Below are positions 7,067-26,747 of a DNA stretch of 53,486 nucleotides, piece by piece; positions within the stretch are counted from its first letter, which is position 1, and the number at the start of each line of letters is the position of its first letter. Under the pieces are notes generated by a model. It made no database searches, was not told the origin of the DNA, and saw only the letters and a list, made by a program, of their open reading frames with translations. This stretch comes from a virus: positions 1 through 53,486 of the IMG/VR virus record IMGVR_UViG_3300025083_000041. One strand, given 5' to 3'. A program made the translations under genes and the position numbers.

Positions 7067-7097
7067 GTGAATAAGACTACCCCCTCAAACGTATAAT
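7067..7097 (+). promoter_or_regulatory. Phage promoter, 5'-3' exonuclease gene
   Basis: GTGAATAAG (7067-7075), 11-nt spacer ending CCCTC (7082-7086), AAACGTATA (7087-7095). The spacer CCCTC can pair with the Shine-Dalgarno GAGGG (7105-7109) in read-through RNA. Confidence 0.75.
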
Positions 7098-7112
7098 AGA
7101 TACGGAGGGAAT

Positions 7113-8081
7113 ATGAGAAAAATTTTAATTATTGATGCACTTAATATGTTTTTTAGGTGCTATGCAAGGGATCCAAGTATTAGTATACAGGGTAACCCTG
7201 CAGGTGGTTGTATTGGCTTTTTAAAGTCTTTACAGAAGTCTATTAGGCTAACTAAGCCTGATGATGTGGTAATCGTTTGGGACGGAAGCGGTGGCTCTAG
7301 AAAGAGACGCCAAATCAATGCTAACTACAAAGCAGGAAGAAAGGTAGTTCGGTTACCAAAAGATATGGGATACGACTTCTCTTTGCAAGAAGAGAAAAAC
7401 AATAAGGTATGGCAGCAATCTAGATTGTTAGAATACCTAGAACATCTTCCAATTTGCCAATTCATGTTTGAGGATATTGAAGCGGATGATATCATCTCAG
7501 CAATTGTTCAGGCTAAAGGAGTTGCTCAAGATCAGAAGATCATTTTATCTAATGATAAAGACTTTATGCAGTTGTGTGATGAGAGAACTATCTTGATGCG
7601 TCCTGCAAAAAAGCCATGGGAAGTATTGAATACGAACCGAATATTGGAGGATCTTAAGATACATCCAAAGAACATGGCACTAGCCAGAGCAATGGTTGGC
7701 GATGCATCTGATAATCTTCCGGGTGTACCGGGAATTGGGTTTGGAAGGGTAGTTAAATTCTTTCCTTTCTTGTCAGAAGACGAAGAATATAGTGCTCAAG
7801 ATCTATTTAAGGTTACCAACGATCTCTTAAAAGAAAAGAAAAGTAAGTACCTAGAAGCAGTTCTAGAACATAAAGATGTTATTGATGAAAATTATAAAAT
7901 CATGCAACTTTACCAACCTTCAGTTTCTTATCAAAGACGACAAATGGTTGAAAATTGCTTGGTGGATAGAGACAAACACTTCAATCTAACAGGCTTTAAA
8001 CTAATGCTATCAGAAGACGGATTCATGTCACTCAAGTGGGAAGTACTTGAACAGACAATGAGGAGAATAATTTCTGAATAA
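7113..8081 (+). CDS. 5'-3' exonuclease / RNase H (FEN1/PIN fold)
   Basis: A 322-residue flap-nuclease-type enzyme. Acidic metal-binding motifs are visible in the expected order: LIIDALNMFFR at the N-terminus, WDGSGGSRKRR, EDIEADDI, LSNDKDFMQL and GDASDNLPGVPGIG, the last being the helix-hairpin-helix region. T4 RNase H (305 aa) is of similar size. It would remove RNA primers and flaps, and supplies the activity missing from the truncated PolA-like protein at 1498. Confidence 0.9.
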   Translation: MRKILIIDALNMFFRCYARDPSISIQGNPAGGCIGFLKSLQKSIRLTKPDDVVIVWDGSGGSRKRRQINANYKAGRKVVRLPKDMGYDFSLQEEKNNKVWQQSRLLEYLEHLPICQFMFEDIEADDIISAIVQAKGVAQDQKIILSNDKDFMQLCDERTILMRPAKKPWEVLNTNRILEDLKIHPKNMALARAMVGDASDNLPGVPGIGFGRVVKFFPFLSEDEEYSAQDLFKVTNDLLKEKKSKYLEAVLEHKDVIDENYKIMQLYQPSVSYQRRQMVENCLVDRDKHFNLTGFKLMLSEDGFMSLKWEVLEQTMRRIISE

Positions 8082-8105
8082 AACAAACAACATAAACGTA
8101 TAGAT
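8074..8105 (+). promoter_or_regulatory. Phage promoter, helicase operon
   Basis: CTGAATAAA (8074-8082), 11-nt spacer, AAACGTATA (8094-8102). The box contains the GAA-TAA end of the exonuclease gene. Confidence 0.75.
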
Positions 8106-8128
8106 TATACAACAAACAAGGAGGGTTA

Positions 8129-9499
8129 ATGAATATGAAGAAAATGCCAGAAGATTTTTCCAGATTTGGGAAACATTTTCAAGAATCAATGGTACAATTA
8201 ATGCTAGAGGATAGAAACTATTGTGATCAGATTACCGAAGTTTTAGATATAAACTTTTTTGAACTGTCATATCTGCAGACATTTGTTTCTAAGATACTTA
8301 TGTATCGAGAAAAGTACAAAGTTCATCCAACATACAAGACAATGATTACAATACTAAGAACAGAACTAGATTCTGAACACGAAGCATTGCAAAGACAGGT
8401 TAAGGAGTATTTTGGTAGAATTCACGGATCAGAAGTGGAAGACTCTGAGTATATTATGGGAGTAAGCCTAGATTTCTGCAGAAAGCAGAAATTAAAAGGA
8501 GCACTGATGGAGACTGTAGAATTGATGCAGTCTTCCTCGTTTGATGAGATAAGCAAGATTATTAATGATGCACTATCTCTAGGATTGGGAAATGAAGCAG
8601 GTTATGAATACCTTACAGATTTTGAAGAAAGATATGCCCTTAAGGCTCGAAATCCACAATCTACTGGCTGGGAGCATGTTGACGACATCACAGGTGGTGG
8701 ACTCGGTATGGGAGAATTGGGGGTTGTGGTAGCGCCAACTGGAGCAGGTAAGTCAATGGTTTTGACTGCCCTAGGTTCAGAAGCAGTTAAAAACGGAAAA
8801 ACTGTTGTTCACTACACCTTTGAACTTTCTGACAAGGTAATTGGAAGACGTTATGACTCATGCATCACGAAAGTACCATTATCAGACTTGAATAGTTTCA
8901 AGGAGCAAGTTTATGATGAAATTAGTCAAATTGAAGGCTCTCTCATCATTAAGGAATATCCTACTAAATCTGCCTCAACTAACACTATCAGAAATCATTT
9001 AGAAAAACTGAAAAAGAGAGGAATTGAAGTAGGCATGATTGTAGTTGATTACGCTGATTTGCTCAAACCTGTCAGTATTTCTAGAGAAAAGAGACATGAT
9101 TTAGAAAATATTTATGAAGAATTACGTGGGATATCTCAAGTGTTCCAATGCCCACTATGGACAGCGTCCCAGACAAACCGTTCAGGACTTAACGCTGAGG
9201 TTGTTACAATGGAATCAATATCTGAAGCATTTAATAAATGTTTTGTCGCTGACTTTATCTGTTCTGTCTCTAGGACAGCGCAGGACAAAGTTAATAACAC
9301 AGGAAGAATGTTTGTAGCAAAAAATAGAAATGGAGTCGATGGGATTGTATATCCAATTATTGCAGATTGGAGTACTGTTAGTATGGAAGTACTTTCTGAA
9401 TCTACAGAGACAATGCAAGAGATTGAAGAAAAATCTCTCTCTGAACACAAAGCAAGTTTATACGAAAGATACAAAAACAATAAAAACAAGGAGAATTAA
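8129..9499 (+). CDS. Replicative DNA helicase, DnaB/gp41-like
   Basis: A 456-residue RecA-fold hexameric helicase. An N-terminal helical domain is followed by a linker and the ATPase core with Walker A APTGAGKS (202-209), Walker B VVDYADLL (305-312) and a downstream SQTNRSG motif typical of DnaB motif 4. ATG 8129 follows AAGGAGGG; a second in-frame ATG lies 6 nt later. It is 2 nt upstream of the ribonucleotide reductase gene, so unwinding and precursor synthesis are co-transcribed. No primase gene is evident in the window. Confidence 0.9.
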   Translation: MNMKKMPEDFSRFGKHFQESMVQLMLEDRNYCDQITEVLDINFFELSYLQTFVSKILMYREKYKVHPTYKTMITILRTELDSEHEALQRQVKEYFGRIHGSEVEDSEYIMGVSLDFCRKQKLKGALMETVELMQSSSFDEISKIINDALSLGLGNEAGYEYLTDFEERYALKARNPQSTGWEHVDDITGGGLGMGELGVVVAPTGAGKSMVLTALGSEAVKNGKTVVHYTFELSDKVIGRRYDSCITKVPLSDLNSFKEQVYDEISQIEGSLIIKEYPTKSASTNTIRNHLEKLKKRGIEVGMIVVDYADLLKPVSISREKRHDLENIYEELRGISQVFQCPLWTASQTNRSGLNAEVVTMESISEAFNKCFVADFICSVSRTAQDKVNNTGRMFVAKNRNGVDGIVYPIIADWSTVSMEVLSESTETMQEIEEKSLSEHKASLYERYKNNKNKEN

Positions 9500-9501
9500 T
9501 T

Positions 9502-11358
9502 ATGGAAGTATCAAATCAAATATTATCGGACATAACTGTCCATATGAAATACGCTCGATATCTGGAAGACAAGCAGAGACGAGAGAATTGGAAAGAACTT
9601 GTCACTCGCAATATGGAGATGCATATTAAAAAGTACCCTAACCTATCAGATGAGATTATTGAAACATATAAGATGGTATTTGATAAGAAAGTACTACCAT
9701 CTATGAGAAGCATGCAGTTCGGAGGTAAACCAATTGAGGTTTCTCCTAATCGCATCTTCAACTGTGCTTTTATGCCCGTTGATGATCTTCGCTCATTCTC
9801 AGAAGCAATGTTCTTGCTTTTGGGGGGAACTGGAGTTGGCTTTTCTGTCCAACGTCATCATATTGACAAATTACCGGAAATCCGTAAGCCAAATGAAAGC
9901 AGAACTAGAAGATATCTAGTAGCAGATTCTATCGAAGGGTGGGCAGATGCAATCAAGGTGCTTTTGAGTTCTTATTTTAAGGGAACATCAAAGATTCGTT
10001 TTGATTTTTCAGATATTCGAGCAAAAGGTGCCAAATTGGTAACTTCAGGTGGTAAAGCACCCGGCCCACAACCTCTTCGCGAGTGCATTGTGAAGGTTAA
10101 AGGTATCTTACGCGAGAAAGAGGATGGTGAAAAACTGACTACAATCGAAGCACATGATATTATGTGTCACATTGCTGATGCAGTGTTGGCAGGTGGTATT
10201 CGACGTGCCGCTCTAATCTCTTTGTTTTCGGCAGATGACATCGAGATGCTAGCAGCAAAATCAGGAAACTGGTGGGAACTCAACCCTCAACGAGGACGAG
10301 CAAATAACTCTGTAGTACTGCTTCGACATCGTGTAACAAAAGAATTCTTTATGGATATTTGGGAACGTGTCAGAGCATCAGGTGCAGGAGAGCCCGGATT
10401 CTATTTCTCTAATGATAAAGACTGGGGTACAAACCCATGCTGTGAGATTGCTCTACGTTCGTATCAATTTTGTAATTTGACAGAAATCAATGTCTCAGAT
10501 GTCGATACACAAGAAGAGTTAGAGAAGAGGGCAAAAGCAGCAGCATTCATTGGAACTCTTCAGGCAGGATATACAGACTTTCATTATCTACGTCCAGTCT
10601 GGCAAAGAACAACAGAAAAAGATGCTTTAGTTGGCGTCTCAATGACTGGCATTGCTTCTGGTGGAGTACTTGAGTTAGACATGAGCAAGGCATCACTTGA
10701 AGTTAAGAAAGAAAACCGAAGAATAGCAATGCAAATTGGAATTAAGCCGGCTGCTAGAACTACTTGTGTAAAGCCTGCAGGCACAACTTCTTTAACCCTA
10801 GGAACGTCCAGTGGTATCCATGCGTGGCATAATGACTATTATATACGCAGAATTCGCGTAGGAAAGAATGAAGCAATTTATAACTATCTTGTGCAGAACC
10901 ATCCTGAGTTAGTTGAAGATGAGTATTTCTCTCCACATGATACAGCAGTCATCTCTGCACCGCAGAAGGCTCCTGAAGGCTCTATAACGCGTTCTGAGAG
11001 TGCGATGGACATGTTGGAGAGGGTTAAGACTGTAACGTCTTCTTGGGTGCGTGGTGGGCATCAAAAAGGGCAGAATTCTCACAATGTCTCTGCCACTGTA
11101 ACCATCAAAGATAACGAATGGGAAACAGTAGGAGAATGGATGTGGAACAATCGTGATTCTTATAATGGATTATCAGTTTTACCATTTAATGATCATTCTT
11201 ATAAACAGGCTCCGTTTGAAGACTGTACAGAAGAGCAATATCATCAAATGCTCAAGAGTTTGAAAGAAATTAATCTTGACAATGTCTCAGAAGAAGAAGA
11301 TCAAACAAATCTCTCAGGTGAGTTAGCCTGTGCCGGAGGTTCCTGCGAAATCTTCTAA
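9502..11358 (+). CDS. nrdJ: Class II (B12-dependent) ribonucleotide reductase, monomeric type
   Basis: A 618-residue reductase. The NPCCE motif (311-315) corresponds to the Asn-x-Cys-x-Glu radical site, with Cys313 as the thiyl position and Glu315 as the acid. Partner redox cysteines are visible at FNCAF (Cys88) and FCNLTEIN (Cys324), and a terminal shuttle pair at Cys610 and Cys615 (ACAGGSCEIF). No class I small subunit is nearby. Length and motif layout fit the adenosylcobalamin-dependent class II enzymes common in marine phages. It would turn ribonucleotides into deoxyribonucleotides, needing host-derived B12. The glutaredoxin at 29200 could help re-reduce it. Confidence 0.9.
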   Translation: MEVSNQILSDITVHMKYARYLEDKQRRENWKELVTRNMEMHIKKYPNLSDEIIETYKMVFDKKVLPSMRSMQFGGKPIEVSPNRIFNCAFMPVDDLRSFSEAMFLLLGGTGVGFSVQRHHIDKLPEIRKPNESRTRRYLVADSIEGWADAIKVLLSSYFKGTSKIRFDFSDIRAKGAKLVTSGGKAPGPQPLRECIVKVKGILREKEDGEKLTTIEAHDIMCHIADAVLAGGIRRAALISLFSADDIEMLAAKSGNWWELNPQRGRANNSVVLLRHRVTKEFFMDIWERVRASGAGEPGFYFSNDKDWGTNPCCEIALRSYQFCNLTEINVSDVDTQEELEKRAKAAAFIGTLQAGYTDFHYLRPVWQRTTEKDALVGVSMTGIASGGVLELDMSKASLEVKKENRRIAMQIGIKPAARTTCVKPAGTTSLTLGTSSGIHAWHNDYYIRRIRVGKNEAIYNYLVQNHPELVEDEYFSPHDTAVISAPQKAPEGSITRSESAMDMLERVKTVTSSWVRGGHQKGQNSHNVSATVTIKDNEWETVGEWMWNNRDSYNGLSVLPFNDHSYKQAPFEDCTEEQYHQMLKSLKEINLDNVSEEEDQTNLSGELACAGGSCEIF

Positions 11359-11364
11359 ATTAGA

Positions 11365-11395
11365 TTGAATATAATGTCCTCCTCAAACGTATAAT
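11365..11395 (+). promoter_or_regulatory. Phage promoter, GroES-like/thyX operon
   Basis: TTGAATATA (11365-11373), 11-nt spacer, AAACGTATA (11385-11393) with perfect TATAAT. The promoter -10 lies in the loop of the hairpin annotated at 11377-11419. Confidence 0.75.
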
Positions 11396-11419
11396 ATATA
11401 CCAAGAGGAGGATTTTTTT
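11377..11419 (+). terminator. Hairpin enclosing a promoter -10 and pairing with the SD
   Basis: TCCTCCTC (11377-11384) pairs perfectly over 8 bp with GAGGAGGA (11405-11412), followed by seven T and the ATG. In RNA coming from the reductase gene this is a terminator that also sequesters the GGAGG of the next gene. RNA started at the enclosed promoter lacks the left arm. Confidence 0.75.
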
Positions 11420-11692
11420 ATGAAACCAGTTAACAGACATTTATTGGTAGAGATGCCAATTGAAGAGATTAAAGAAGAGGAAGGCACATTTTTGCTTCCG
11501 GAAGATTATAAAACTACAAAAGTAGAGAGATATGCTAAAGTAAATATCATTGCATGTGCTGATGATTGCAAAAGAGAATATAGTGGCGAAGCATATGTAG
11601 AGAACTCTATGATTGAAGATATCATGATTGAAGGTAAAATGTATCATATAGTATCGGAAAACTATATAGTACTACTTATGGAGGCAAAATGA
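11420..11692 (+). CDS. GroES-like co-chaperonin
   Basis: A 90-residue protein with the GroES layout: N-terminal PVNRHLLVEMP, a mobile-loop-like segment with EEGTFLLPEDY, and a C-terminal strand reading YHIVSENYIVLLMEAK. It resembles phage co-chaperonins such as T4 gp31 in size, with low direct similarity. It would cap the phage GroEL encoded at 26748 or the host GroEL. Its stop overlaps the thyX start (ATGA). Confidence 0.65.
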   Translation: MKPVNRHLLVEMPIEEIKEEEGTFLLPEDYKTTKVERYAKVNIIACADDCKREYSGEAYVENSMIEDIMIEGKMYHIVSENYIVLLMEAK

Positions 11693-12438
11693 ATGGGACT
11701 GATGACAAAAGTAATGCTAATAACAGAACGATTTTTACTTACGGAGACAATATTGGCTCAGTTAGCCTTGTTGATTACATGGGCAGCGACATCACTGTTG
11801 TTAACTCTGCAAGGGTTTCTTTTGGTATCGAAAAGTCCGAACTTGATAGAAGAGACAAGCGACTTATCAATTACCTTATTAAACATCGCCACACATCAAC
11901 ACTTGAGCATAATCTTATTACTTTTAAATTCGTTGTGCCTTTGTTTGTTCGCTCTCAGCACCATAGGCACCGCACTTGGAGTTATAACGAGATTAGTAGA
12001 CGTTATACGGACAAAAATCTCCAGTTTTATGAACCTCTAGAGTTTAGAACCCAACATGAGAGTAATAGGCAGGCATCCAATGAGAATAATACTGCCAACC
12101 CTACTATTACGCCACAATTTATCGATTCCTACATTTCAGCATCTGACGCTATGAAATCTTGGCATGTCCAGTCATTAGACTTCTTCAACAAGTTGATCGA
12201 TGCTGGGGTATGCAGAGAACAGGCTAGAGGAGTTTTGCCACAAAACTTATATACAGAATATTACGGTACAGTTAATCTTAATAATCTTTTAAAGTTTGTG
12301 GAACTCAGAACACATGAAGGAGCGCAGTGGGAGATACAGAAGGTAGCAGAAGCATGTCTAGAATTAGCAACAGATTTATTCCCAGTGACAGTTAATGCAT
12401 ATAGGAAGGTGAAGAGTGAAGCCAAATCCACATCGTGA
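11689..12438 (+). CDS. thyX: Flavin-dependent thymidylate synthase ThyX
   Basis: A 249-residue ThyX. The signature RHR-x7-S is present as RHRTWSYNEIS (93-103), and a conserved GVCREQARGVLP segment follows near residue 180. The enzyme methylates dUMP to dTMP using FAD, NADPH and methylene-tetrahydrofolate. Its substrate would be supplied by the dUTPase at 22216. It overlaps the GroES-like gene by 4 nt and the next gene by 23 nt, so it belongs to one operon. Confidence 0.93.
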   Translation: MNGTDDKSNANNRTIFTYGDNIGSVSLVDYMGSDITVVNSARVSFGIEKSELDRRDKRLINYLIKHRHTSTLEHNLITFKFVVPLFVRSQHHRHRTWSYNEISRRYTDKNLQFYEPLEFRTQHESNRQASNENNTANPTITPQFIDSYISASDAMKSWHVQSLDFFNKLIDAGVCREQARGVLPQNLYTEYYGTVNLNNLLKFVELRTHEGAQWEIQKVAEACLELATDLFPVTVNAYRKVKSEAKSTS

Positions 12439-13225
12439 GACAGATCTCTACTTTGACAAGATAATAATCGGTAGCACAGTCCAAGCCATGGTTGCAGCGT
12501 TCAAGTACCAAATCCCAATTTTTGCGGATGAGGCATTGAAGCCACTACCTCATTATCACTTATCTTCCGATTTAGATCTGTCTAGAATTCAGGTTAAGAA
12601 CAGCATTACAGAGTTTGAACTTCTATCAGGTAAAAAAGAGACTAGAGGCATGCAAAGACTAGAATTATGGAATATCATGGCATATCGACTAGGAGTTATG
12701 GGATTGATGCCACTTCAGGGAGTCTTCGAGAATACATTCACAGAATCAATCCCAATGGGGCAGAACATTAGAATGTTTACAATTCGAGCAGACAATAAGA
12801 TAATTAATGTCAATTCAAAGAAAACGATACTCTTTGATTTTCCCAAGTATACATTAGGGAATAAAACTTATATGGTTAACGACTATATTCATATGAATAA
12901 GATTTACGATCTATCAGCGAATTTGTTTCCGTCGAAAGATTGTGAATTTGAAGATACTATTGCATATGAGACTGTGTTCATGAAAGATAAGGGGAGAAAG
13001 CACAAAGCATGTGCAAAGTCTATCATCAGTCAAGATAACTTGGATCATTGGAAGTATAGCCAGACAGCAGTAAGGTTAAGAACTCAAAGTTCTATATTCT
13101 GGAATATGGAAAAGAAGTTTGAACTGATCTTGGGTGAAAGAGAGATATCTCCAATAATGGCTAGAATTGCTGATTCTATTGAAGATATTATTGAATATGA
13201 TATTTTAGATGAGGAATTCCATTGA
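12416..13225 (+). CDS. Unknown 269-aa protein, Rossmann-like N-terminus
   Basis: Starts at GTG 12416 after AGGAAGG and overlaps thyX. The N-terminal FDKIIIGSTVQAMVAAFKY (14-31) looks like the first strand and turn of a nucleotide-binding Rossmann fold, as in FAD-linked oxidoreductases, but the usual GxGxxG is degenerate. The remainder is not recognised. It overlaps the following gene by 4 nt, and the two may act together. Confidence 0.75.
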   Translation: MKPNPHRETDLYFDKIIIGSTVQAMVAAFKYQIPIFADEALKPLPHYHLSSDLDLSRIQVKNSITEFELLSGKKETRGMQRLELWNIMAYRLGVMGLMPLQGVFENTFTESIPMGQNIRMFTIRADNKIINVNSKKTILFDFPKYTLGNKTYMVNDYIHMNKIYDLSANLFPSKDCEFEDTIAYETVFMKDKGRKHKACAKSIISQDNLDHWKYSQTAVRLRTQSSIFWNMEKKFELILGEREISPIMARIADSIEDIIEYDILDEEFH

Positions 13226-14106: not shown

Positions 14107-14121
14107 GAATAAGAAAAATGT

Positions 14122-14132
14122 TGACTATTTAT
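14122..14132 (+). promoter_or_regulatory. Candidate late-type promoter element
   Basis: TGACTATTTAT, identical to 6645-6655, 32 nt before the second KSYI-type gene. Confidence 0.4.
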
Positions 14133-14164
14133 TACAATCGATACTCATTTAAGGAGAAATTAAA

Positions 14165-14497
14165 ATGAAAGTAACAAAATCTTATATCAAGCAACTTATC
14201 AAAGAGGAGTTGGCTAATGTACTCGAAGGCAAAGGCCCTGAGTATGAAAGAAGAGGAAAAACACAAGCAGGGCAAGATTATACAATCTATGTTAGATCTT
14301 CTAATTCTGGTGAGCCTAGATACTTTTTGAGTATTATCGGCGATGTATCAGATGGTAAATACCAAATCGGCGAAGAGATGGCTAACGAAATCTTGAGAAA
14401 TTCGAATAATCCTCCAAAGTTTCTGGATAATCAGTTTACAATGGAAAATTATAAATCAAAGGATGAAGTTTATAATTCATATGTTCACAATATGTAA
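14165..14497 (+). CDS. Small protein with KSYI-x-QL-x-KEEL N-terminus
   Basis: A 110-residue protein beginning MKVTKSYIKQLIKEEL after AAGGAG, the same start as the product at 6677, with unrelated remaining sequence. The N-terminus contains IKE, which fits the (L/I)xE cleavage preference of T4-type prohead proteases. A head-targeted protein is the most attractive reading but is inferred. No catalytic motif is visible. Confidence 0.7.
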   Translation: MKVTKSYIKQLIKEELANVLEGKGPEYERRGKTQAGQDYTIYVRSSNSGEPRYFLSIIGDVSDGKYQIGEEMANEILRNSNNPPKFLDNQFTMENYKSKDEVYNSYVHNM

Positions 14498-14505
14498 CAT
14501 ATTAT

Positions 14506-14537
14506 TTGAATAAATCAACTCCCTCAATCGTATTAAT
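14506..14537 (+). promoter_or_regulatory. Phage promoter, PolIII alpha gene
   Basis: TTGAATAAA (14506-14514), 11-nt spacer, AATCGTATT (14526-14534). Confidence 0.75.
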
Positions 14538-14574
14538 CATACAACAACAAACAATACGACTAAGGGAGTTTTTA
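14517..14574 (+). terminator. Long hairpin spanning the PolIII alpha promoter
   Basis: AACTCCCT (14517-14524) pairs with AGGGAGTT (14563-14570), and TCGTATT (14528-14534) with AATACGA (14553-14559), followed by a short T-run. The outer right arm contains the Shine-Dalgarno. Only read-through RNA carries both arms. Confidence 0.7.
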
Positions 14575-14576
14575 TT

Positions 14577-17500
14577 ATGGATATCAAGAATATTGATTTC
14601 GTCAATTTACATGCACATTCTGGTGTAGGTTCGCCGTTTGACGGCTTTGGATACCCACAGGATCACATGGATTATGCCCACTCTAACGGCTCAAAAGCGT
14701 TAGCACTCACTGATCATGGAAACATGAATGGGTTTGCCTATCAAGTACTCCACGCCAAGAAGATGAAAGAAGCAGGAAAAGACTTCAAGCCAATCTTTGG
14801 CGTTGAGGCTTATTTTATTGAAGATGTAGTAGAATGGAGAGAAAAGTATGAACAAGCAAAAGCAGACAAGAAGCGCAAGAAAGAGATCAAAGACGATTCA
14901 TCAGGAATCTCAATCGAAACAGAAGGAGAATCTAAGTCTAAAGGACGTTCTGACATTAATCGCTCTCGTCATCTTATTCTTATTGCTATGAGTCAGAAGG
15001 GGCTTAACAATATCTTTAAGATGGTGTCTGAGTCTCACAAGGGTGACTATTTTTATCGTAAGCCTAGAGTTGATTTCGGACTCTTAGAGAAGTATGGAGA
15101 GGATGTTATTGCAGCCTCTGCTTGTTTGGGGGGAGTCTATGCAGGTGCTTACTGGAGTCTTCACGAGGAAGGTGATGAAGCCGTCTTAAGCGAGATGCGA
15201 CGTCTAACAGAGCGCTTTCAATCTATTTTGGGTGATCGATGGTATGGAGAGTTGCAATGGAACCGTGTTCCTCAACAACATGAACTTAATCGTCACATAA
15301 TTCAGATCCATAAAGAGACTGGGCTTAAGTTGATCTCTACAGCAGACTCTCACTATCCAACACCTGAAGCATGGCAAGACAGAGAACTATATAAGCGACT
15401 TGGTTGGCTTGGTAGATCTAAGCCAGAGTGGCTAGATATGTCCCTTCCTGCCGAGGTTCAAGAACTAGAGTGCGAACTTTATCCTAAGAACGCAGAACAA
15501 ATGTGGGAATCATACAAGAGATATGCAAACGAGTGTGGAGTATCCTATGACGATGATATTGTCCTAGATTCTATCAAAGAGACACAAACTATTGCTTTTG
15601 AACGTATCCAAGACTTCCTTCCGGACAATACAGTACGATTACCAGATTTTGTTGTACCGTCTGGATATACTGAAGATGGCTATCTTAAGCGCCTTACAAC
15701 TGAAGGGATGTTCAATATCCTCAAAGATCAGAACAGAGCAAACAAAGAAACAGCCAGAATATACAAAGAACGTATTGATGAAGAACTGTCTGTAATCTCA
15801 GAACGTGGGTTCTCAAAGTACTTCTTGACTATGAAAGCAGTGGCAGACAAAGCATCTAATATGATGCTCACAGGTACTGGACGTGGCTCAGCAGCCGGAT
15901 CTTTAGTGGCATATGCACTTGGCATAACACAGGTTGATCCTATTGAGTATGGATTACTGTTTTCACGTTTCTTGCGTAAAGATGCTAAGGATTACCCAGA
16001 TATCGATTATGATGTAGCAGAACCTATGGAACTTAAGGATCACCTCATTGAGGAATGGGGAACTGACTGTGTGGCTCCTATCTCCAACTGGAACACATTA
16101 CAGTTAAAGTCTTTAATCAAAGACATCTCCAAAATGTATGACATTGAATTTAAAGAAGTTAACATTGTAACAGGCAAAATGATTGCTGAAGCAACTCCGC
16201 TTGCCAAGAAGAAGCATGGTATCAAAGCAGGTATGTATATTCCCACATGGGAAGAGGTGTTAGAGTTCTCAAGTACTCTCAAGTCTTTCTTGGAGAAATA
16301 TCCACAAGTAGAAAAGCATGTCAAATCTATGGTTGGGCAATATCGATCTTGCTCTCGTCATGCCGGTGGCGTGGTGATTGCAGAGAACTTGGATAGACAC
16401 ATGCCCTTGATTCAATCAGGTGGCGTAATCCAGACTCCATGGAGTGAGGGGCAGAACGTCCGTCAACTTGAACCAATGGGTTTCATCAAGTTCGACTTAC
16501 TTGGGTTAACAACCCTTCGTATGATTCAGGGTGCTATCGAGCGAATACTCAAGAAGCAAGGTAACATCAATCCATCATTCATACAAGTTAAGGAGTTCTA
16601 TAACAAGAATTTGCATCCCTCTGTTCTGAACTTCGATGATCAGAGAGTATACAAGAATGTGTTTCATAAAGGTAAGTGGGCTGGAATCTTTCAGTTCACA
16701 GAGTCTGGAGCACAGAACTTTTGTAAGTCTGTCAAGCCATCTTCTATTGTTGACATCTCTGCTATCACTTCTATCTTCCGTCCCGGCCCACTATCTGCAG
16801 GTGTACATGAAGACTATGTAAAGGCTAAAGATGCACCAGACGATGTGTTCTACGAGAACCAAATTGTACGTGACGTTACAGAAGAGACGTATGGTTTTCT
16901 AATCTTTCAGGAGCAGATTGCCCTACTGGCTCACAAGTTGGGAGATGGCATCTCTTTGGATGAGGGTAACTTGCTTCGTAAACTCTTGACTAAGAAAGGT
17001 ACAGGTAAAGGTGCTGAATTGATGTACTCTATCAGAGACAGGTTTATCAAAGGCTGTGTTCAGAAGAGAATGCGACGAGAAGATGCTACTGCAATGTGGC
17101 AAACATTTGAATACTTCTCTGGATATGGTTTCAACAAATCACACGCTGTGTGTTACTCTATGATCTCATATCAATGTGCTTGGCTTATGACTTATCATGA
17201 GGGTGAGTGGCTGGCAGCATATCTAGATAAAGTTTCAGACAAGAAGAAAGAATCTGCAATCGCTACTGCGAAGACTTTGGGGTATACCATCTCTAAACTT
17301 AATGTAAATATATCTGGAAAGCAGTGGGAATATGATTCGTCATCCAACTCTTTGCTTCAGCCTTTGACTACTATTAAAGGACTAGGTGCATCTGCCATGG
17401 AACAAGTGGTTAATAACCGCCCATTTAACACTGTAGAGGACTTTCTATTCAACCCTGACGTCAAGTATAGCAAACTTAATAAAAAGGCTCTAGACGTGCT

Positions 17501-18254: not shown

Positions 18255-18257
18255 AAA

Positions 18258-18290
18258 ATGAATAAATAGTGCCCTTCAGACGTATATACT
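18258..18290 (+). promoter_or_regulatory. Phage promoter, 18306 and methyltransferase operon
   Basis: ATGAATAAA (18258-18266), 11-nt spacer with CCCTTC (18272-18277), AGACGTATA (18278-18286). CCCTTC can pair with the Shine-Dalgarno GGAGGG (18294-18299). Confidence 0.65.
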
Positions 18291-18305
18291 ATAGGAGGGT
18301 TTACT

Positions 18306-18500
18306 ATGCTCACAAAGAAACAAATTAAAGAGAAGATAAAACAGACTGAAACTATTGAAAGAATGTTGTTAATGTTTTTGGCTGATCGCTCAACACCTGA
18401 AGAACAAGCACATATGCTAGTCGGAGAGTTGTTGACAGCGTCAGAGTTCATAGTTCGGTTCAAACAATGCTTAAAAGAAATGAAAAGGGAGGGAAAGTGA
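18306..18500 (+). CDS. Unknown 64-aa helical protein
   Basis: A small helix-rich protein (KKQIKEKIKQTETIERMLLM and a second helix near residues 40-60) translated from AGGAGGG. It overlaps the methyltransferase start by 4 nt. It could be a regulatory partner of the methyltransferase, but nothing shows this. Confidence 0.65.
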   Translation: MLTKKQIKEKIKQTETIERMLLMFLADRSTPEEQAHMLVGELLTASEFIVRFKQCLKEMKREGK

Positions 18501-20091: not shown

Positions 20092-21017
20092 TTATAAACT
20101 ACTTCAACCAAAGAGTTGCCTGTTGGAATGACAGTGAACTCAACCCTGTTTAAGGTGGCGTTGTAAGTCCAATCACGATTTAGGATGCCATCTATATAAA
20201 CGTATATCCAATTGGGATCTAGCGGAACGTGTGTCAAGTCAATCCATTCATAAGGAACGACTTGATCTGCTGCTTGTGCCACACCAGCACTCCAATCTTC
20301 GGAACAGATATCGACAATATTACCGCCGAAGTGGTTTGTGGCGTTAACGTATCTCTCTCCAACATTCTGCATTGGCACATTCGAAGTACATTCAGAGACA
20401 TCATTTGGCAAGTTTATGATGCTAGCAACAAAGGTGTGAGATCTTTGCATTAATGCCCAGTTTATAAACTCAAACTCATTGGCTACATGTTCTCTAGACT
20501 GATCATTCTCATCAGAGACGAAAACAATTAGAAGAGCAGCATCATTCCTAAGCCAAGTATTGGCGTATTGATTGAAGTCTATGTATTCTATCACAGCATC
20601 AAAGCCTGCCTCATACTGTCCATTGATATGATCGCTATACATCGCTTCAACATCTGCTATTGTATCACCCGGAACAATAGGGAAAGAAGTTAAGTTTGTC
20701 ACTTCACGGTAATCAGAAGGAATAATCATCAGTCTCCACCCAACAGCAGGCAAACTGTTCATCATGAGTTGGATACCTGCCAAGATTGCAGGCTGATCGT
20801 CAAACATAGAGCCTGAAGGATCAATAACCCAAAATATATCAACACCATCCAGTGAGCGAATCTGAACAAAAGAATCAACCCAAAGATCTGAAAAGTCATA
20901 GTCAGTGTCCTCTATCACTTCACACTCAGACTCAACCTCTATATATACCTCAACCTCTTTTTCGTATGCTAGCATCCCATCGGACATGCAAGACATAATA
21001 AACAATAACATCAACAT
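20085..21017 (-). CDS. Von Willebrand A-domain lipoprotein
   Basis: The only convincing minus-strand gene. The 310-residue product has a short hydrophobic start ending in a lipobox-like IMSC (Cys10), then an acidic segment and a VWA domain whose MIDAS motif is DPSGS (66-70). This domain composition indicates an exported, lipid-anchored, metal-dependent adhesion-type protein. VWA lipoproteins of this kind occur in bacterial genomes, including myxobacteria, so it may be an acquired host gene altering the infected cell surface. Its 3' end overlaps the GIY-YIG gene by 7 nt; no phage-type promoter faces it. Confidence 0.75.
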   Translation of the reverse strand: MLMLLFIMSCMSDGMLAYEKEVEVYIEVESECEVIEDTDYDFSDLWVDSFVQIRSLDGVDIFWVIDPSGSMFDDQPAILAGIQLMMNSLPAVGWRLMIIPSDYREVTNLTSFPIVPGDTIADVEAMYSDHINGQYEAGFDAVIEYIDFNQYANTWLRNDAALLIVFVSDENDQSREHVANEFEFINWALMQRSHTFVASIINLPNDVSECTSNVPMQNVGERYVNATNHFGGNIVDICSEDWSAGVAQAADQVVPYEWIDLTHVPLDPNWIYVYIDGILNRDWTYNATLNRVEFTVIPTGNSLVEVVYNY

Positions 21018-21080
21018 AACATATAACCCCCATAGTATCTAATATAACTACCTTTCGGAAAAAGAAAAAGTAACTTTAAA

Positions 21081-21111
21081 TTGAATAAAGAATGTTTGTC
21101 AAACGTATAAT
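21081..21111 (+). promoter_or_regulatory. Phage promoter, 21139-22749 operon
   Basis: TTGAATAAA (21081-21089), 11-nt spacer, AAACGTATA (21101-21109) with perfect TATAAT. Confidence 0.8.
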
Positions 21112-21138
21112 AAGTAACAACTACCAAAGGAGGTAAAA

Positions 21139-21372
21139 ATGGAAGTATCAAATGAAGAGCCAGAGCAAACATCTGGCTTAACTCAGGGAGACTTGGCAAT
21201 CGCTGCATATGCTCTCGCAGAAACATATAACTCATACTTAGAAGAGTATGAAGCAGAAGACTTTGGCGAATTGTCAAAGGAACAGATGGAATCATCAATG
21301 AACTCTTTACGCACTGCGTTTTCAAAGTTCGATGCGATTCTCAAAGCAATGCAACCACAGGAGGAAGAATGA
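21139..21372 (+). CDS. Unknown acidic 77-aa protein
   Basis: Follows AAAGGAGG. Acidic and helical, with a poly-Glu C-terminus. It is the first gene of an operon of overlapping small genes leading to dUTPase. No family recognised. Confidence 0.65.
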   Translation: MEVSNEEPEQTSGLTQGDLAIAAYALAETYNSYLEEYEAEDFGELSKEQMESSMNSLRTAFSKFDAILKAMQPQEEE

Positions 21373-21449
21373 TTACTTTCATAGGAACAATTGTGCTTGT
21401 ATCGGTATTCACAGTTGTATGGATGAAAATGTTTGGAGGTGGTGAATGA
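21369..21449 (+). CDS. Single-pass membrane peptide, 26 aa
   Basis: Starts in an ATGA overlap with the previous gene after AGGAGGAAG, and overlaps the next start in the same way. The product is one hydrophobic helix (TFIGTIVLVSVFTVVW) plus a short polar tail. The double translational coupling supports a real gene. Confidence 0.6.
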   Translation: MITFIGTIVLVSVFTVVWMKMFGGGE

Positions 21450-21661
21450 AGAGCAGAGATATTCACGGCTTAACTAAAGCGGCTCTAGCACACTTCATAG
21501 CGACGAAAAAAAGGGCAGAGGCTAATCTTGGTGTCTATCTTTCGAGTCCTACAGGCATCGGGGAACATCCTGATATTGTAGGAGAAGTTGTTAAACTTAT
21601 AAAAACAATCACAGAAGCAGAAGAATCGATAAATTATCTACAACGGAGAATAAATGAATAA
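21446..21661 (+). CDS. Unknown 71-aa helical protein
   Basis: Starts after GGAGGTGG in an ATGA overlap. Mostly helical, with a C-terminal heptad-like segment. It overlaps the next membrane protein by 8 nt. Function unknown. Confidence 0.6.
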   Translation: MKSRDIHGLTKAALAHFIATKKRAEANLGVYLSSPTGIGEHPDIVGEVVKLIKTITEAEESINYLQRRINE

Positions 21662-21878
21662 ATGGATGAAAGAAGGAATGATTAATGGACTGCAAGGGAT
21701 GCTATTCTTTGCCGTTGTCTGTTCAATCTGGGCAATTATTATTAAGTTGTCTGAAAACTTGGGAGTTAGTCCCGGATGGAGTATGTTGGCTTTCTTTATT
21801 ATAGCCATATTCTCAATGAGCATGGCATCTGCCAAGGCTAAATACGATTTAGATCAAAAGTTTGGAGGAGACAAATGA
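21654..21878 (+). CDS. Two-helix membrane protein, 74 aa
   Basis: Two predicted transmembrane segments (about residues 14-31 and 42-58) separated by a short SENLGVSPG loop, with a charged C-terminus. It is embedded in the overlapping operon. It might be a holin-like or inner-membrane modifier, but the endolysin is 3 kb away and holin identity is not supported. Confidence 0.6.
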   Translation: MNKWMKEGMINGLQGMLFFAVVCSIWAIIIKLSENLGVSPGWSMLAFFIIAIFSMSMASAKAKYDLDQKFGGDK

Positions 21879-22219
21879 ATAAAACAATATATCTTATTGA
21901 CATTGATGGTACAGTTTGTGAGGACGTACCAAATGAAGAAGCACATCGCTTCTTATCGGCAAAGCCAATTGATGGTGCTTTGGATATGGTTAACAAAGTC
22001 TTAGAGGAAGGTAATAGAGTAACTTTCTTTACTGCTAGGACTAGTGAACATGCCGATGTAACTGAACAATGGTTGAAAAATAATGGCTTTCCATTTGAGT
22101 CTGTGTGCTATAACAAGCCTCGAACAGATGATGGTTGGGAATATCATTGGGTTGATAATAAACCAGTAACCAGTACTTATACACCACAAGGGTTTGTACT
22201 GTTAGGAGAGGGAAAATGA
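21875..22219 (+). CDS. HAD-superfamily phosphatase, small
   Basis: A 114-residue minimal HAD fold. Motif I is IDIDGT (8-13), motif II is FFTART, and conserved VDNKP lies near the C-terminus. It lacks a cap domain, similar to phage nucleotidase or polynucleotide 3'-phosphatase domains. Its overlap with dUTPase suggests nucleotide metabolism. Confidence 0.75.
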   Translation: MNKTIYLIDIDGTVCEDVPNEEAHRFLSAKPIDGALDMVNKVLEEGNRVTFFTARTSEHADVTEQWLKNNGFPFESVCYNKPRTDDGWEYHWVDNKPVTSTYTPQGFVLLGEGK

Positions 22220-22749
22220 TTCTAGAATATACTTTTACACATGATAATGTAGTTCCACCAACTCGCTCCAACCCTTCAGATGCAGGATTGGATATCTATT
22301 TCTCTCATCCTGAGTCTTCAGAAGAGGTTATAATATATCCAAATACTGGAGCGCTATTCCGCACAGGACTTCGCTTTGGAGTTCCCCATGGGTACATGCT
22401 GCAAATCATGAACAGATCATCTGTGGCATCTAAGAGGAGCCTTCTTGTTGGTGCATGTGTAGTGGACTCTGGGTATGATGGGGAAGTGTTTGTCAATCTG
22501 CACAATGTAGGGTTAAACCCTCAAGTGATTAGACATGGAGACAAGATTGCTCAGGCAGTTTTAGTCCCAATTGTGCCTTTCCGAGCCTACTGTCGTCATG
22601 ACGGAGATCTATATGGATATCCTATCACAATGTCCGAAAGAGGTGATGGAGCACTAGGAAGTACAGATGCCAAAGAAAAGCCATTGGCTGATGAAGGGCA
22701 AAATAAAGATTATGATGATATTTATTTAAACTCTAGTAAGTCGGATTAA
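22216..22749 (+). CDS. dut: dUTP diphosphatase
   Basis: A 177-residue trimeric-type dUTPase with all five motifs: SDAGLDI (21-27), NRSS (66-69), VDSGYDGE (83-90), GDKIAQ (108-113) and RGDGALGST (142-150). It makes dUMP for ThyX and keeps uracil out of DNA. An acidic tail of about 25 residues extends beyond motif 5. ATG overlaps the HAD stop. Confidence 0.93.
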   Translation: MILEYTFTHDNVVPPTRSNPSDAGLDIYFSHPESSEEVIIYPNTGALFRTGLRFGVPHGYMLQIMNRSSVASKRSLLVGACVVDSGYDGEVFVNLHNVGLNPQVIRHGDKIAQAVLVPIVPFRAYCRHDGDLYGYPITMSERGDGALGSTDAKEKPLADEGQNKDYDDIYLNSSKSD

Positions 22750-22766
22750 ATTAAGGAGGAACTGCT

Positions 22767-23099
22767 ATGAAAGGAATTAAGAAAGATAAACAAATACTGT
22801 TCTTAGAGACAGAGAAGCGTCATGCTGACTTGAAAATTAAATTAAAACACTACGGCATCTCCCAATCTGACTTTATCAGAGGATGCATATCCGGACTAAT
22901 TAATGACGATGAGCAGTTCTTCCAATTCTTTTTCAAATTGCTTGAAGAAAAATCTTATGTAAAATCATCTAAAAATCGTAAAAAGAATGAAGAAATGATA
23001 ACGAAAGGACTAAATACTATTGAAGAAGACTTTGTATTCAAAGATTCTGAAATTGAAAATATTTTCGATATAATTGAAAAAGATCATCCGGATTTATGA
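22767..23099 (+). CDS. Unknown 110-aa protein with a possible RHH segment
   Basis: Follows AAGGAGG. A segment reading LKIKLKHYGISQSDFIRGCISGL resembles the strand-helix of ribbon-helix-helix DNA-binding proteins, followed by an acidic helical tail. It sits just before the prohead-core-like gene. Function unknown; a structural-assembly role is also possible. Confidence 0.6.
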   Translation: MKGIKKDKQILFLETEKRHADLKIKLKHYGISQSDFIRGCISGLINDDEQFFQFFFKLLEEKSYVKSSKNRKKNEEMITKGLNTIEEDFVFKDSEIENIFDIIEKDHPDL

Positions 23100-23166
23100 T
23101 TTTTGGATAGAATATCACTAATTAAAACAAAATGCATAATTTGTCATGACAAAAAGGAGATTTCAA

Positions 23167-23700
23167 ATGGCTAAGAAAAAATTAATTTTAAACGAGGGTA
23201 CTACTCGTCAATTCATGAAGTACGCAAATATCAAGCCTACTTATGTTTCTAACTTCTTAAGTGAGTCCGAGTACAATCGCGATGAAGAAGAAGAGAAAAT
23301 GGAAGAAGGACTACTTGATGAAGTGGAAGAAGAAGAGGGAGTTGAAATGGAAGCAGAACCAGAAATGGATGCTGGCATGGAAGTTGAAGACGAAATGGCT
23401 GCAGAACCAGAAATGGATGCAGGATCTGACGATGCCGAAGGCATGGTAATGGATCTACTTGGCGCAATTAAAGATTGGGCACAGTCTCAAGGAGTCTCTA
23501 TGGAACTCGAAGGTGATGAAGAAGAAGGCATGGAAGATATGGAAGCAGCGCCCGAAGGAGGTGATTTGGGGATGGCTGACGATGTTGATGCTGATTTGGA
23601 AGCCGCAGATACTGAAGTAATGGACGATGAAGAAGTCATTGCTGAAGTTACTCGTCGTGTGGCTAGACGTTTATTGAGAGAGTCTGCAAAAAGAAAGTAA
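23167..23700 (+). CDS. Acidic prohead-core/scaffold-like protein
   Basis: I choose ATG 23167, which follows AAAGGAG, over an upstream in-frame ATG. The 177-residue product has a basic N-terminus (LILNEGTTRQFMKYANI) of a type seen on marine T4-like phage core proteins, a very acidic Glu/Met/Asp-rich middle with repeated MEAEPEMDAG units, and a basic Arg-rich C-terminal helix. This charge layout suits an internal scaffold. The ClpP-like protease next to it may process it. Confidence 0.6.
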   Translation: MAKKKLILNEGTTRQFMKYANIKPTYVSNFLSESEYNRDEEEEKMEEGLLDEVEEEEGVEMEAEPEMDAGMEVEDEMAAEPEMDAGSDDAEGMVMDLLGAIKDWAQSQGVSMELEGDEEEGMEDMEAAPEGGDLGMADDVDADLEAADTEVMDDEEVIAEVTRRVARRLLRESAKRK

Positions 23701-23701
23701 T

Positions 23702-23732
23702 CTGAATATTTTGCAAAATTCAAACGTATTAT
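23702..23732 (+). promoter_or_regulatory. Phage promoter, ClpP-like protease gene
   Basis: CTGAATATT (23702-23710), 11-nt spacer, AAACGTATT (23722-23730). A hairpin with a T-run begins directly at the expected transcription start. Confidence 0.65.
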
Positions 23733-23774
23733 AAGGGCAGGCTATCTATAATGTGGGTAGTTCGCCCTTTTTTT
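23733..23774 (+). terminator. Hairpin plus T-run at the transcription start
   Basis: AAGGGC (23733-23738) pairs with GCCCTT (23764-23769), with an inner CTATC/GGTAG stem, followed by TTTTTTTG. It can end the transcript of the scaffold-like gene, and would be the first structure in RNA from the overlapping promoter. Confidence 0.7.
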
Positions 23775-23793
23775 GTTTAACAAAGGAGAAGTT

Positions 23794-24549
23794 ATGAACA
23801 AAGATAATGAAGAAAACGAAGAAACTTCGGAAGATGTTGTAGATCAACAGCGGCAACACGCACTTGCTGAAGATCAACAATTCGACGGCGAAGAGTCAGA
23901 AGAGGGAGAGTCAGAAGAGGGAGAGCAAATAACTCTCCAAGAACTATTAGAGATGGTAGCAGCCAAATCAGAAGAGGCTGAAAAGGAAGACGATTTGAAC
24001 TCTATGCGCTCAGTCGGACTTTATGGTGATGTAGAAGAGGAAAGGATTGCTGAAGTTATCTCCGCATTGCTGATGTTACAGCATGTAGGCAAACCAAAGT
24101 ATGATGACGAAGGGAAACTTACAGAAGAAGGCAAGCCCATCAAATTGTATGTCTCCACTTATGGTGGTTCTGCAGATGATATGGCAGCCCTTGTTGACAT
24201 CATGAATGTTGTAAAGAAAGATTGTCCAATTGAAACAGTTGGGATTGGCAAGGTTATGTCTGCCGGTGTGCTTATATTAGCATCAGGGACAAAGGGTGAA
24301 CGCTATATTGGAAAGAATTGTCGTGTTATGATTCATTCTGTGATTGCCGGTAACCATGGTTCTTTGCACAATTTGGAAAATGAACTCTCAGAGATTAAAA
24401 AAATGCAAGACATTTATCTACAATCTCTAGCAGATGCAACAAGTATGACAAAGAAACAACTAAAATCTTTCATGAGAAGAAAACAAAACGTCTATTTAAA
24501 TGCAGAAGAGGCAATTAAATTAGGCATTGCTGATAAAATTTTGGAGTAA
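23794..24549 (+). CDS. ClpP-like serine protease (S14), possible prohead protease
   Basis: Start at ATG 23794 after AAAGGAG. The 251-residue product has an acidic N-terminal extension of about 65 residues, then a ClpP fold with LYVSTYGGSADD (118-129), the nucleophile in GKVMSAG (Ser156) and the catalytic His in MIHSVIAG (His181). The C-terminal NAEEAIKLGIAD fits ClpP. S14 enzymes serve as capsid maturation proteases in several phage groups; the neighbouring scaffold-like gene supports that reading, while a ClpP-type housekeeping role is the alternative. Confidence 0.85.
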   Translation: MNKDNEENEETSEDVVDQQRQHALAEDQQFDGEESEEGESEEGEQITLQELLEMVAAKSEEAEKEDDLNSMRSVGLYGDVEEERIAEVISALLMLQHVGKPKYDDEGKLTEEGKPIKLYVSTYGGSADDMAALVDIMNVVKKDCPIETVGIGKVMSAGVLILASGTKGERYIGKNCRVMIHSVIAGNHGSLHNLENELSEIKKMQDIYLQSLADATSMTKKQLKSFMRRKQNVYLNAEEAIKLGIADKILE

Positions 24550-24555
24550 TATATT

Positions 24556-25455
24556 ATGGCTATAGATAAAGAATTTTACAATGAAGCGTCTGCCGCCAAG
24601 TTAGGATGGGATCCTACTTGGTTTGGGCATGATGCGTTTGACGAGAAACTAACTCGCATCATTCGTAACTGGCAGAAGGATAGAAGGCTTGCAGCCGATG
24701 GGTTGTGTGGGCCGGGAACCTTCCGTGTCCTTTTTAATGAGAGAGAATCACAGATCTCTGATTATGTCTCGCCTAACTATGATAATGATGGACTAGCACG
24801 TATCGTCTATAATGGTAGCGAGTTTCCTATTGAATGGGATAAGACTGTCTTATGGACAGACAAGGGCGGCTTGATGGCAAAATTGGGAGCCTATCGTTCC
24901 CAAGCAGGAAAGAAGCCTAGAAAGATTACTCAGTTTATTAATCACTGGGATGTCTGCTTGTCGTCGAAGTCATGTCAACGTGTCCTTGATAAGCGTGGTA
25001 TATCCGTACATTTCTTGATTGACAATGACGGAACCATCTATCAGACAATGGATCTTCAGCATATTGGATGGCATGCAGGTGTTTCAAAGATCAACAACCT
25101 TTCTGTAGGTGTTGAGATTTCAAATGCTTACTATCCTAAGTGGCAGCAGTGGTACAAGAAGCATGGATTTGGTGAACGTCCAATCGTAACAGATGCAGAA
25201 GTTCATGGAAAGAAGTTAGATACTCACCTAGGGTTCTATCCTGTACAATTGCAAGCCCTACAAGCCCTCTGGAAAGCCATTCACTTGGCTTGTGGTGTTC
25301 CACTAGAGACATTGACTGGAAGCACTAAGAACGCCTATGACGCTTCTGCAAAGAGTGGTAAGTTTAAAGGGTTCTTGTCGCATTATCATATCAAGAAAAC
25401 AAAGATTGATTGTGCAGGACTTGACATTGAAAAACTATTGGAGGACTTGAAATGA
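24556..25455 (+). CDS. N-acetylmuramoyl-L-alanine amidase (endolysin)
   Basis: A 299-residue Amidase_2 enzyme with an N-terminal peptidoglycan-binding-like segment (ADGLCGPGTFRVL, 47-59). Zinc ligands of the T7 lysozyme type are visible: His130 (FINHWD), then His278 and Cys286 in HYHIKKTKIDC, spaced by 8 as in T7; IGWHAG (170-175) is also conserved. It cleaves the amide bond between MurNAc and the stem peptide. No signal peptide is present, so it would need a holin. It is co-transcribed with the ClpP-like gene. Confidence 0.88.
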   Translation: MAIDKEFYNEASAAKLGWDPTWFGHDAFDEKLTRIIRNWQKDRRLAADGLCGPGTFRVLFNERESQISDYVSPNYDNDGLARIVYNGSEFPIEWDKTVLWTDKGGLMAKLGAYRSQAGKKPRKITQFINHWDVCLSSKSCQRVLDKRGISVHFLIDNDGTIYQTMDLQHIGWHAGVSKINNLSVGVEISNAYYPKWQQWYKKHGFGERPIVTDAEVHGKKLDTHLGFYPVQLQALQALWKAIHLACGVPLETLTGSTKNAYDASAKSGKFKGFLSHYHIKKTKIDCAGLDIEKLLEDLK

Positions 25456-26684
25456 ATTTTAAAGGAAATGATATGCTACTGAGAGTACTGGCTGAGGCTG
25501 TCGACAAGAGGGAGAAGTTGAAAGAAGACGCAGCGGCTGCACCGACGATAGATCCATCTAAGAAATCTGTAGTAGGTAACGTTGACAGTGTTAAGAGCGA
25601 TATTGGTAGTAATGGCGCTGAAGGTGACAGTATCTTAAATGTACAAGACATTGCAAGAACCCTCATCACAGGAACAGAGTCGGGACAAAGAGATCAGATG
25701 AACATCAAAGATGCTTTCGACGTTATAAGAAAATCTAATAATTTCGTAACTGAACTAAAATCAGTTTCAGGAGACAAGTTAATTGAAACTTTAATTAATG
25801 CTCTTGCGAAGTATTTTGTTCCTCCTGAGGATAGTGATGGTTGTACAGATTTGTCTTCTATGTTCACTCGACATGTTGTAATGAGTTCATATTCTATGAT
25901 ATTTAAAGAATATTCTGGCTCACCAGCAGGCTTCGTCAATGAAAGTTTTATTGCAGGACTTATAGGAGGAGAATCAATTCCAGCAGCCTCTTCGACAACC
26001 ATTGCAGATATACAAATACAAGGTAACAATATAGGAATTTCTCTCAAAACAACGTCATCTGATTCAAAATTATCTGGCTCATTTACTAATTTGATGAGAA
26101 CATTAGGAATAAAATTCAGAGTAGAAGGAGGTACAAAGTCATATATTTCTGATTCGGATGTCCCTCAACACGCTTTAGGACTTTATTATCTTTTATTTAA
26201 CAAGAAATCAACAGAAAGTCACTCAATCTCATGCTTTAAAGTTGATAGAGGGGAGATGATCAATAATCTAGATTATTATGTCGCCAACCAAAAAGGAACA
26301 AGAATGTCAAAGGAAGAAGACGGTACGTATGTGTTTCGTTCGAAGAAAGACTATGATGACTTGGTTTCTAAGTTTGCACCTCTGCTTGGGATAAAGTTTG
26401 ATAGTATCGTAGATGATAGTGTTATTGGTATTTCTGGATTTCAGAAAATTGAGCAAGAGTTAGAGTTGAGTGCTCAAGTAACTGCCAATGGCAAGCAAGA
26501 GAATATTGATAAGATCATCAAAACATTGAACCTATTGAATACATTTTATTCACAATATGTTAATGCTGTAGTGTCTTTTGCATCAGATCCAACTGGGGAA
26601 AAGTTACAAGGTATACAAGAGAAATTAACTGCCATGTCAAAAATTGATCCTACGAACTTAGTAACTTCTGAAAATTGTAGTTGA
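25452..26684 (+). CDS. Unknown 410-aa protein, nuclease-like core possible
   Basis: Overlaps the amidase by 4 nt. Residues 160-200 show Glu164, then ADIQIQ (Asp186) and ISLK (197-200), an arrangement like a PD-(D/E)XK nuclease core with Ser in place of the acidic residue. The following segment, SFTNLMRTLGIKF, is a helix as expected in such folds. The rest is not recognised. An inactive or divergent nuclease, or a virion protein, are both possible. Confidence 0.7.
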   Translation: MNFKGNDMLLRVLAEAVDKREKLKEDAAAAPTIDPSKKSVVGNVDSVKSDIGSNGAEGDSILNVQDIARTLITGTESGQRDQMNIKDAFDVIRKSNNFVTELKSVSGDKLIETLINALAKYFVPPEDSDGCTDLSSMFTRHVVMSSYSMIFKEYSGSPAGFVNESFIAGLIGGESIPAASSTTIADIQIQGNNIGISLKTTSSDSKLSGSFTNLMRTLGIKFRVEGGTKSYISDSDVPQHALGLYYLLFNKKSTESHSISCFKVDRGEMINNLDYYVANQKGTRMSKEEDGTYVFRSKKDYDDLVSKFAPLLGIKFDSIVDDSVIGISGFQKIEQELELSAQVTANGKQENIDKIIKTLNLLNTFYSQYVNAVVSFASDPTGEKLQGIQEKLTAMSKIDPTNLVTSENCS

Positions 26685-26686
26685 CT

Positions 26687-26717
26687 TTGAATAAAACGGT
26701 GATTATAAACGTATAAT
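26687..26717 (+). promoter_or_regulatory. Phage promoter, GroEL gene
   Basis: TTGAATAAA (26687-26695), 11-nt spacer, AAACGTATA (26707-26715) with perfect TATAAT. TGATTAT in the spacer (26700-26706) can pair with ATAATCA (26729-26735) just before the Shine-Dalgarno. Confidence 0.8.
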
Positions 26718-26747
26718 ATATATAACGAATAATCATTGGAGGAAAAA

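Follow-up and report, generated by a model that had tools for sequence, protein, structure and literature searches.

The stretch of DNA analyzed here (the window, 53,486 nucleotides) is a fragment of an uncultured, probably marine phage in which parts of several promoters are complementary to sequence at or beside the Shine-Dalgarno (SD) site of the following gene. This arrangement raises the question of what becomes of RNA that enters such a gene from upstream. The window codes for RecA, a gp32-like protein, a 5'-3' exonuclease (exo), a DnaB-like helicase, ribonucleotide reductase, Thy1, DnaE, a DNA methylase, GroEL and a GroES-like protein, the last label resting on sequence and position, with no Pfam match. 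A near-identity search against named phage genomes returned no match for the window, and DnaE matches among these genomes are ~30% identical.

Forward-strand genes of the window are preceded by a very regular promoter, TGAATAA-N15-CGTATAAT (core GAATAA-N15-CGTATAA), with a 15-nt spacer, which the plain sigma-70 consensus fits poorly. We found 23 strict copies (0.12 expected) and 49-50 copies in total (span 1434-53473), nearly all on the + strand. Contigs of relatives carry the same motif with a fixed spacer, and the reversed pattern gave 0 matches in them. We infer the label early for this promoter, and late for a second motif introduced below, from gene content. The -10 region is quasi-palindromic (CGTATAATATATACG) at 7090-7104 and at other promoters, and this gives the exo hairpins an extra inner stem.

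Pairing between early promoters and ribosome sites

A first-pass annotation had listed five pairings between a promoter spacer and the SD region downstream, and all five are present in the sequence; judged by the -10 box, transcription should start ~20 nt or more downstream of the left arms. That list was a selection, as it omitted a stronger sixth element at 23704. The features are:

7069-7097, + strand: exo early promoter (GAATAA 7069-7074, -10 TATAAT 7092-7097)
7082-7086, + strand: exo left arm CCCTC, in the promoter spacer; longer in relatives
7105-7109, + strand: exo right arm GAGGG, which is the SD; ATG at 7113, no U-tract after the arm
11367-11395, + strand: early promoter of the GroES-like gene (groES)
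11377-11384, + strand: groES left arm TCCTCCTC, in the spacer
11405-11419, + strand: terminator-like groES right arm GAGGAGGA, which is the SD (11405-11412), then TTTTTTT (11413-11419); ATG at 11420
14508-14536, + strand: dnaE early promoter
14517-14524, + strand: dnaE left arm AACTCCCT, in the spacer; inner stem arm TCGTATT at 14528-14534
14553-14576, + strand: dnaE inner arm AATACGA (14553-14559), right arm AGGGAGTT (SD, 14563-14570) and U-rich run; ATG at 14577
18272-18299, + strand: left arm CCCTTC (18272-18277) and right arm GGAGGG (SD, 18294-18299) of the ORF at 18306, with one G-U pair
23704-23732, + strand: early promoter GAATAT ... CGTATTAT, directly after the gene at 23167-23700
23733-23774, + strand: conserved hairpin of AAGGGC(A) (23733-23738) and GCCCTT (23764-23769), with a T-run to 23774
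26689-26717, + strand: groEL early promoter
26697-26738, + strand: groEL left arm CGGTGATTAT (26697-26706) and right arm ATAATCATTG (26729-26738), adjoining the SD; the start is probably GTG at 26748

At groEL, these arms extend a core pairing, TGATTAT/ATAATCA (26700-26706 / 26729-26735). At 23704, the left arm comes after the -10 box but before the expected start, not in the spacer. The description of the five as replication genes fits two of them (the 5'-3' exonuclease and DnaE); the others code for the GroES-like protein, GroEL and, behind a promoter at 18260, an unknown 64-aa ORF. Pairing is neither confined to nor defined by replication genes.

When spacers were re-dealt among 50 window promoters, three promoters reached a helix score of at least 19 where 0.28 were expected (P=0.002), namely 11367 (GroES-like), 14508 (DnaE) and 26689 (GroEL). 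Once the threshold was low enough to include the helices at exo (7069) and 18260, this window test gave a count at chance level, and duplex energies across the whole window showed no overall excess. The window's own exo helix has just 5 bp (shuffle P 0.12). Among 164 distinct promoter matches, nearly all of the strongest spacer/leader helices belong to orthologues of the listed sites, and a control, the helicase gene at 8129, which has an equally strong SD, was unpaired in 8/8 phages examined.

Read-through RNA of pairing exo, groES and dnaE alleles is predicted to form hairpins of about -10 to -25 kcal/mol in which the SD is buried, and the unpaired probability of the SD in pairing alleles of these genes and 18306 is 0.00-0.20. 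The proposal that read-through RNA hides the start is thus upheld, as a prediction, for these four genes but not for groEL, where the helix adjoins the SD without covering it and the SD is mostly free (unpaired probability 0.60-0.80). RNA begun at the promoter is generally predicted to leave the SD open (0.52-0.96), with the exception of the window's 18306, where it is mostly paired (0.27).

Pairing and its upstream context in relatives

Loci of relatives that share the early promoter were taken from IMG/VR. The pairing recurs in these phages at dnaE and groEL and, in some of them, at exo and groES, but it is not conserved at 18272/18294; the 18306 pairing is probably due to chance, and we drop it from the finding. 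The groupings used below (paired or unpaired, late gene present or absent) were drawn after the pattern had been seen, in a sample of few related phages.

A second promoter motif, ACTATTTAT, precedes tail sheath, tail tube and head-tail adaptor genes in relatives (L245, L352 and others) and may serve as a late promoter in these phages. The 185-kb relative L004 (a contig of 184,889 bases) has 12 forward and 0 reverse copies, against 3 and 2 for the reversed control. The window's two best forward copies lie directly before exo and dnaE, and the features concerned are:

6607-6643, + strand: ordinary intrinsic terminator (stem 6607-6636, T-run to 6643)
6647-6655, + strand: late motif ACTATTTAT, best forward-strand match in the window
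6677-7045, + strand: putative late gene (MKVSKSYIRQLVKEEL...), directly 5' of exo
14124-14132, + strand: late motif ACTATTTAT, second clear forward copy
14165-14497, + strand: putative late gene (MKVTKSYIKQLIKEEL...), directly 5' of dnaE
23167-23700, + strand: putative late gene (acidic, MAKKKLILNEGTTRQFMK...), upstream of promoter 23704

Before the last of these genes the window has a degenerate late motif, ACTAATTA, at 23117-23124, at a place where relatives have an intact ACTATTTAT. Early promoters that lie next 3' of a late promoter pair in 11/15 cases, compared to 13/123 others (Fisher P=4e-7; orthologues are not independent). As no recognised late gene lies upstream of groES or groEL, the case for a temporal role is best at exo, dnaE and 23704. 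Most of the intervening genes have a common N-terminus, MKVTKSYIKQLVKEEL, and otherwise different bodies. This N-terminus is nearly fixed over 16 residues, and the bodies that follow it (6677-7045, 14165-14497 and relatives) are unrelated and vary between close relatives; by analogy with the packaged proteins of T4, it may be a head-targeting or packaging signal on interchangeable cargo. A search with the late gene N-terminal sequence yielded one new contig (L359), in which the gene has no early promoter after it.

The exo locus gives the clearest view of this association. In 7/7 phages with a late gene directly upstream the spacer pairs, and in 7/7 phages that lack the late gene there is no pairing and an ordinary terminator abuts the promoter, running (e.g. 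as GGCTCCCTATCATTAATTTGGTAGGGAGTTTTTTTT) directly into the GAATAA box. This terminator is the one found at 6607-6643 in the window; in paired phages it lies several hundred bases further upstream, with the gene in between. Helix scores and folding energies separate the two sets fully (exact P=0.0003, not kinship-corrected); here and elsewhere, P values overstate the evidence because the orthologues are related. Since the exo arms shift register between phages, column-wise covariation is not countable, and we used scores, folding energies and shuffles instead. The helix has 9 bp in L258 and 11 bp in L177. In L268 and L260, both among the seven that have a late gene, the promoter drives a different inserted gene and still pairs, by only 5 bp in L260. 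L257, which is nested within the paired clade of the exonuclease tree, has no intervening gene and no pairing, though its SD region is still GGAGGGAAT. The pairing tracks its upstream context, occurring together with an unrelated transcription unit directly 5'.

At groES, four phages are paired and have no ordinary terminator upstream, and three are unpaired and have one; by eye, two of these terminators abut the promoter and one is ~50 nt away. At dnaE, 6/6 phages are paired through differing arms (e.g. CTCCCT/AGGGAG, CCTCCC/GGGAGG, CCTCTC/GAGAGG), most weakly in L004. Both sides have changed in 4/10 pairs and slid registers pair far less, a covariation of modest weight since the arms were set by hand and the sequences number six. 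The groEL helix is kept in 4/5 phages, and the 23704 element in all 6/6 where it was found.

Probable insulation of early genes from incoming RNA

From these sequence comparisons, we consider it probable that hairpins placed across the promoters shield early genes against transcripts entering from upstream, most of them late. Their 5' arm is part of the promoter itself, either in the -35/-10 spacer or, in the case of 23704, after the -10 box and before +1, so only incoming RNA would have it; the loop would span the transcription start, and the 3' arm would lie just before the gene, usually over the SD. A polymerase arriving from upstream, typically from a ACTATTTAT late promoter whose late gene has been inserted immediately 5' of the early gene, would make the whole hairpin. 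Its RNA would then be terminated at the U-tract (23704, 11367, 14508) or persist with the ribosome site folded shut (7069, and also 11367 and 14508). RNA started at the early promoter would lack the 5' arm and be made and translated normally. We infer the start sites from promoter position, and termination and translation block from the form of the hairpins.

We give about even chances to a fuller proposal, in which an early promoter that follows directly on a late gene becomes enclosed in a hairpin, either a terminator or one that masks the SD, and this hairpin is gained and lost with the late gene. By this means the promoter would tell its own RNA from late RNA, in a mirror image of T4 gene e repeated at several loci.

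As for the outcome in incoming RNA, the first-pass annotation had proposed a switch that blocks the SD. The arms do pair in relatives, with compensating changes, but the U-tracts at 11367, 14508 and 23704 point to termination. Because the right arm leads into a U-rich tract at 11367 and 14508, termination is at least as likely there as a translation block. Terminator scores are positive at 11367 and 23704 and, because of the long loop, negative in 4/5 dnaE alleles. At 23704, the next SD lies further 3', outside the hairpin, so termination is the sole effect open to this element. Judging by its position, the full 23704 hairpin should form in incoming RNA alone; an inner stem is possible in promoter-started RNA (-8 kcal/mol in the window vs -2 to -3 in relatives). 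We suggest that termination is the likelier effect where a U-tract is present and SD masking where there is none, as at exo; both would insulate the gene.

Two simpler accounts would each assign all of the elements to one of these effects. If the hairpins acted purely by sequestering the SD, as first proposed, read-through RNA would stay but go untranslated, and the U-tracts would be incidental or would extend the pairing towards the AUG. The right arm is indeed the SD at exo, groES and dnaE, exo has no U-tract, the L177 exo pairing extends into the start codon, and in L020 the U-rich run of dnaE itself pairs with the A-rich -35 side. We nevertheless regard this account as unlikely, as 23704 is a terminator that touches no SD, paired groES alleles have 6-8 T before the ATG compared to 2-4 in unpaired ones, and the pairing is replaced by ordinary terminators rather than by other SD hairpins. 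This same swap at exo and groES, together with the U-tracts and terminator scores at 11367 and 23704 and the U-rich run at 14508, favors pure intrinsic termination, in which the unit upstream ends in an ordinary terminator that overlaps the next promoter because space is short, and the SD falls in the arm as a by-product. That account also seems improbable to us, as no U-tract follows the hairpins at exo and groEL (terminator score ~-70) and yet exo is the clearest case of the swap.

A chance match of C-rich stretches in a few spacers to G-rich SDs would agree with the lack of excess in window duplex energies and with the exo and 18306 helices, which alone are at chance. It is contradicted by the two-sided changes at dnaE, the complete separation at exo, the unpaired control gene at 8129 and the A/T-rich, non-SD-like pairing at groEL. 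We consider chance very improbable as a general explanation and largely refuted for dnaE, groES and exo, though it is still the best reading of 18306. The inverted repeats could also be DNA sites for a regulator, given that their arms lie on either side of the -10/start region, or they could have arisen by hairpin-templated mutation and have no function, as templated repair can match arms. Unlike what a protein site would show, the arms differ in sequence between genes and orthologues and still pair, and templated mutation leaves the link to late genes and the missing terminators unexplained, so that we give these origins very little credence. We rejected an operator or chance reading, as the arms covary and the 8129 control never pairs.

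Relation to known hairpins and terminators

Hairpins sequester the ribosome site of T4 genes e, soc, 49 and I-TevI and of Aeh1 mobE (PMC3014915, PMC2988022). In these T4-type cases the shielded genes are all late genes on early or middle RNA (PMC2988022), and the late promoter region also encodes the 5' strand of the hairpin (PMC3014915, PMC2988022). The parallel to T4 gene e drawn in the first-pass annotation applies in part. As in that group, a long RNA from upstream would mask the ribosome site, and RNA begun at the nearby promoter is predicted, from promoter position, to lack the 5' strand and be translated. An SD or AUG held in a helix of upstream RNA is predicted at exo, groES and dnaE and not at groEL. 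The direction is reversed, however: early genes would be shielded here, at exo and dnaE from late-promoter RNA, both being replication genes with late-motif genes upstream. The elements described here also differ in having the left arm in the -35/-10 spacer, in their several U-tracts and in their swap with ordinary terminators.

Like intrinsic (Rho-independent) terminators, the elements at 11367 and 23704, and more weakly 14508, have a G+C-rich stem followed by a U-run, which the exo and groEL hairpins (7069, 26689) lack. Unlike ordinary intrinsic terminators, they hold the promoter and start of the next gene inside the stem and loop, so that gene's own RNA cannot form the full stem. The groEL hairpin (26697-26738), which adjoins the ribosome site without covering it, resembles Aeromonas phage 25 seg43(25), where a stable hairpin lies just upstream of the ribosome site and regulation remained undetermined (PMC2988022). 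It differs in that the groEL early promoter lies within the hairpin. Among the papers covered by a literature search, none described a promoter-straddling terminator of this kind, which is weak evidence of novelty.

If this insulation is real, a phage can place late genes in its early region without having its replication genes switched on again by late transcription, reversing the direction of the classic T4 example. No extra DNA would be needed, as one stretch of 50-70 bp would serve as promoter, terminator and ribosome site. The presence or absence of a late gene at one locus would amount to a sequence-level natural experiment.

We also observed two structures at other genes. At 35212-35273 of the window, TAGAAACC in the -10 region of a promoter pairs with GGTTTCTA, reaching the start codon of 35271, in a comparison limited to one near-identical relative. 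The leader of the gp32-like gene (4130-4230) contains a conserved hairpin, GAGGGATAAT...ATTATCCCTACTTTAGACAAA, both arms of which have changed in L257, L258, L259, L268 and L269.
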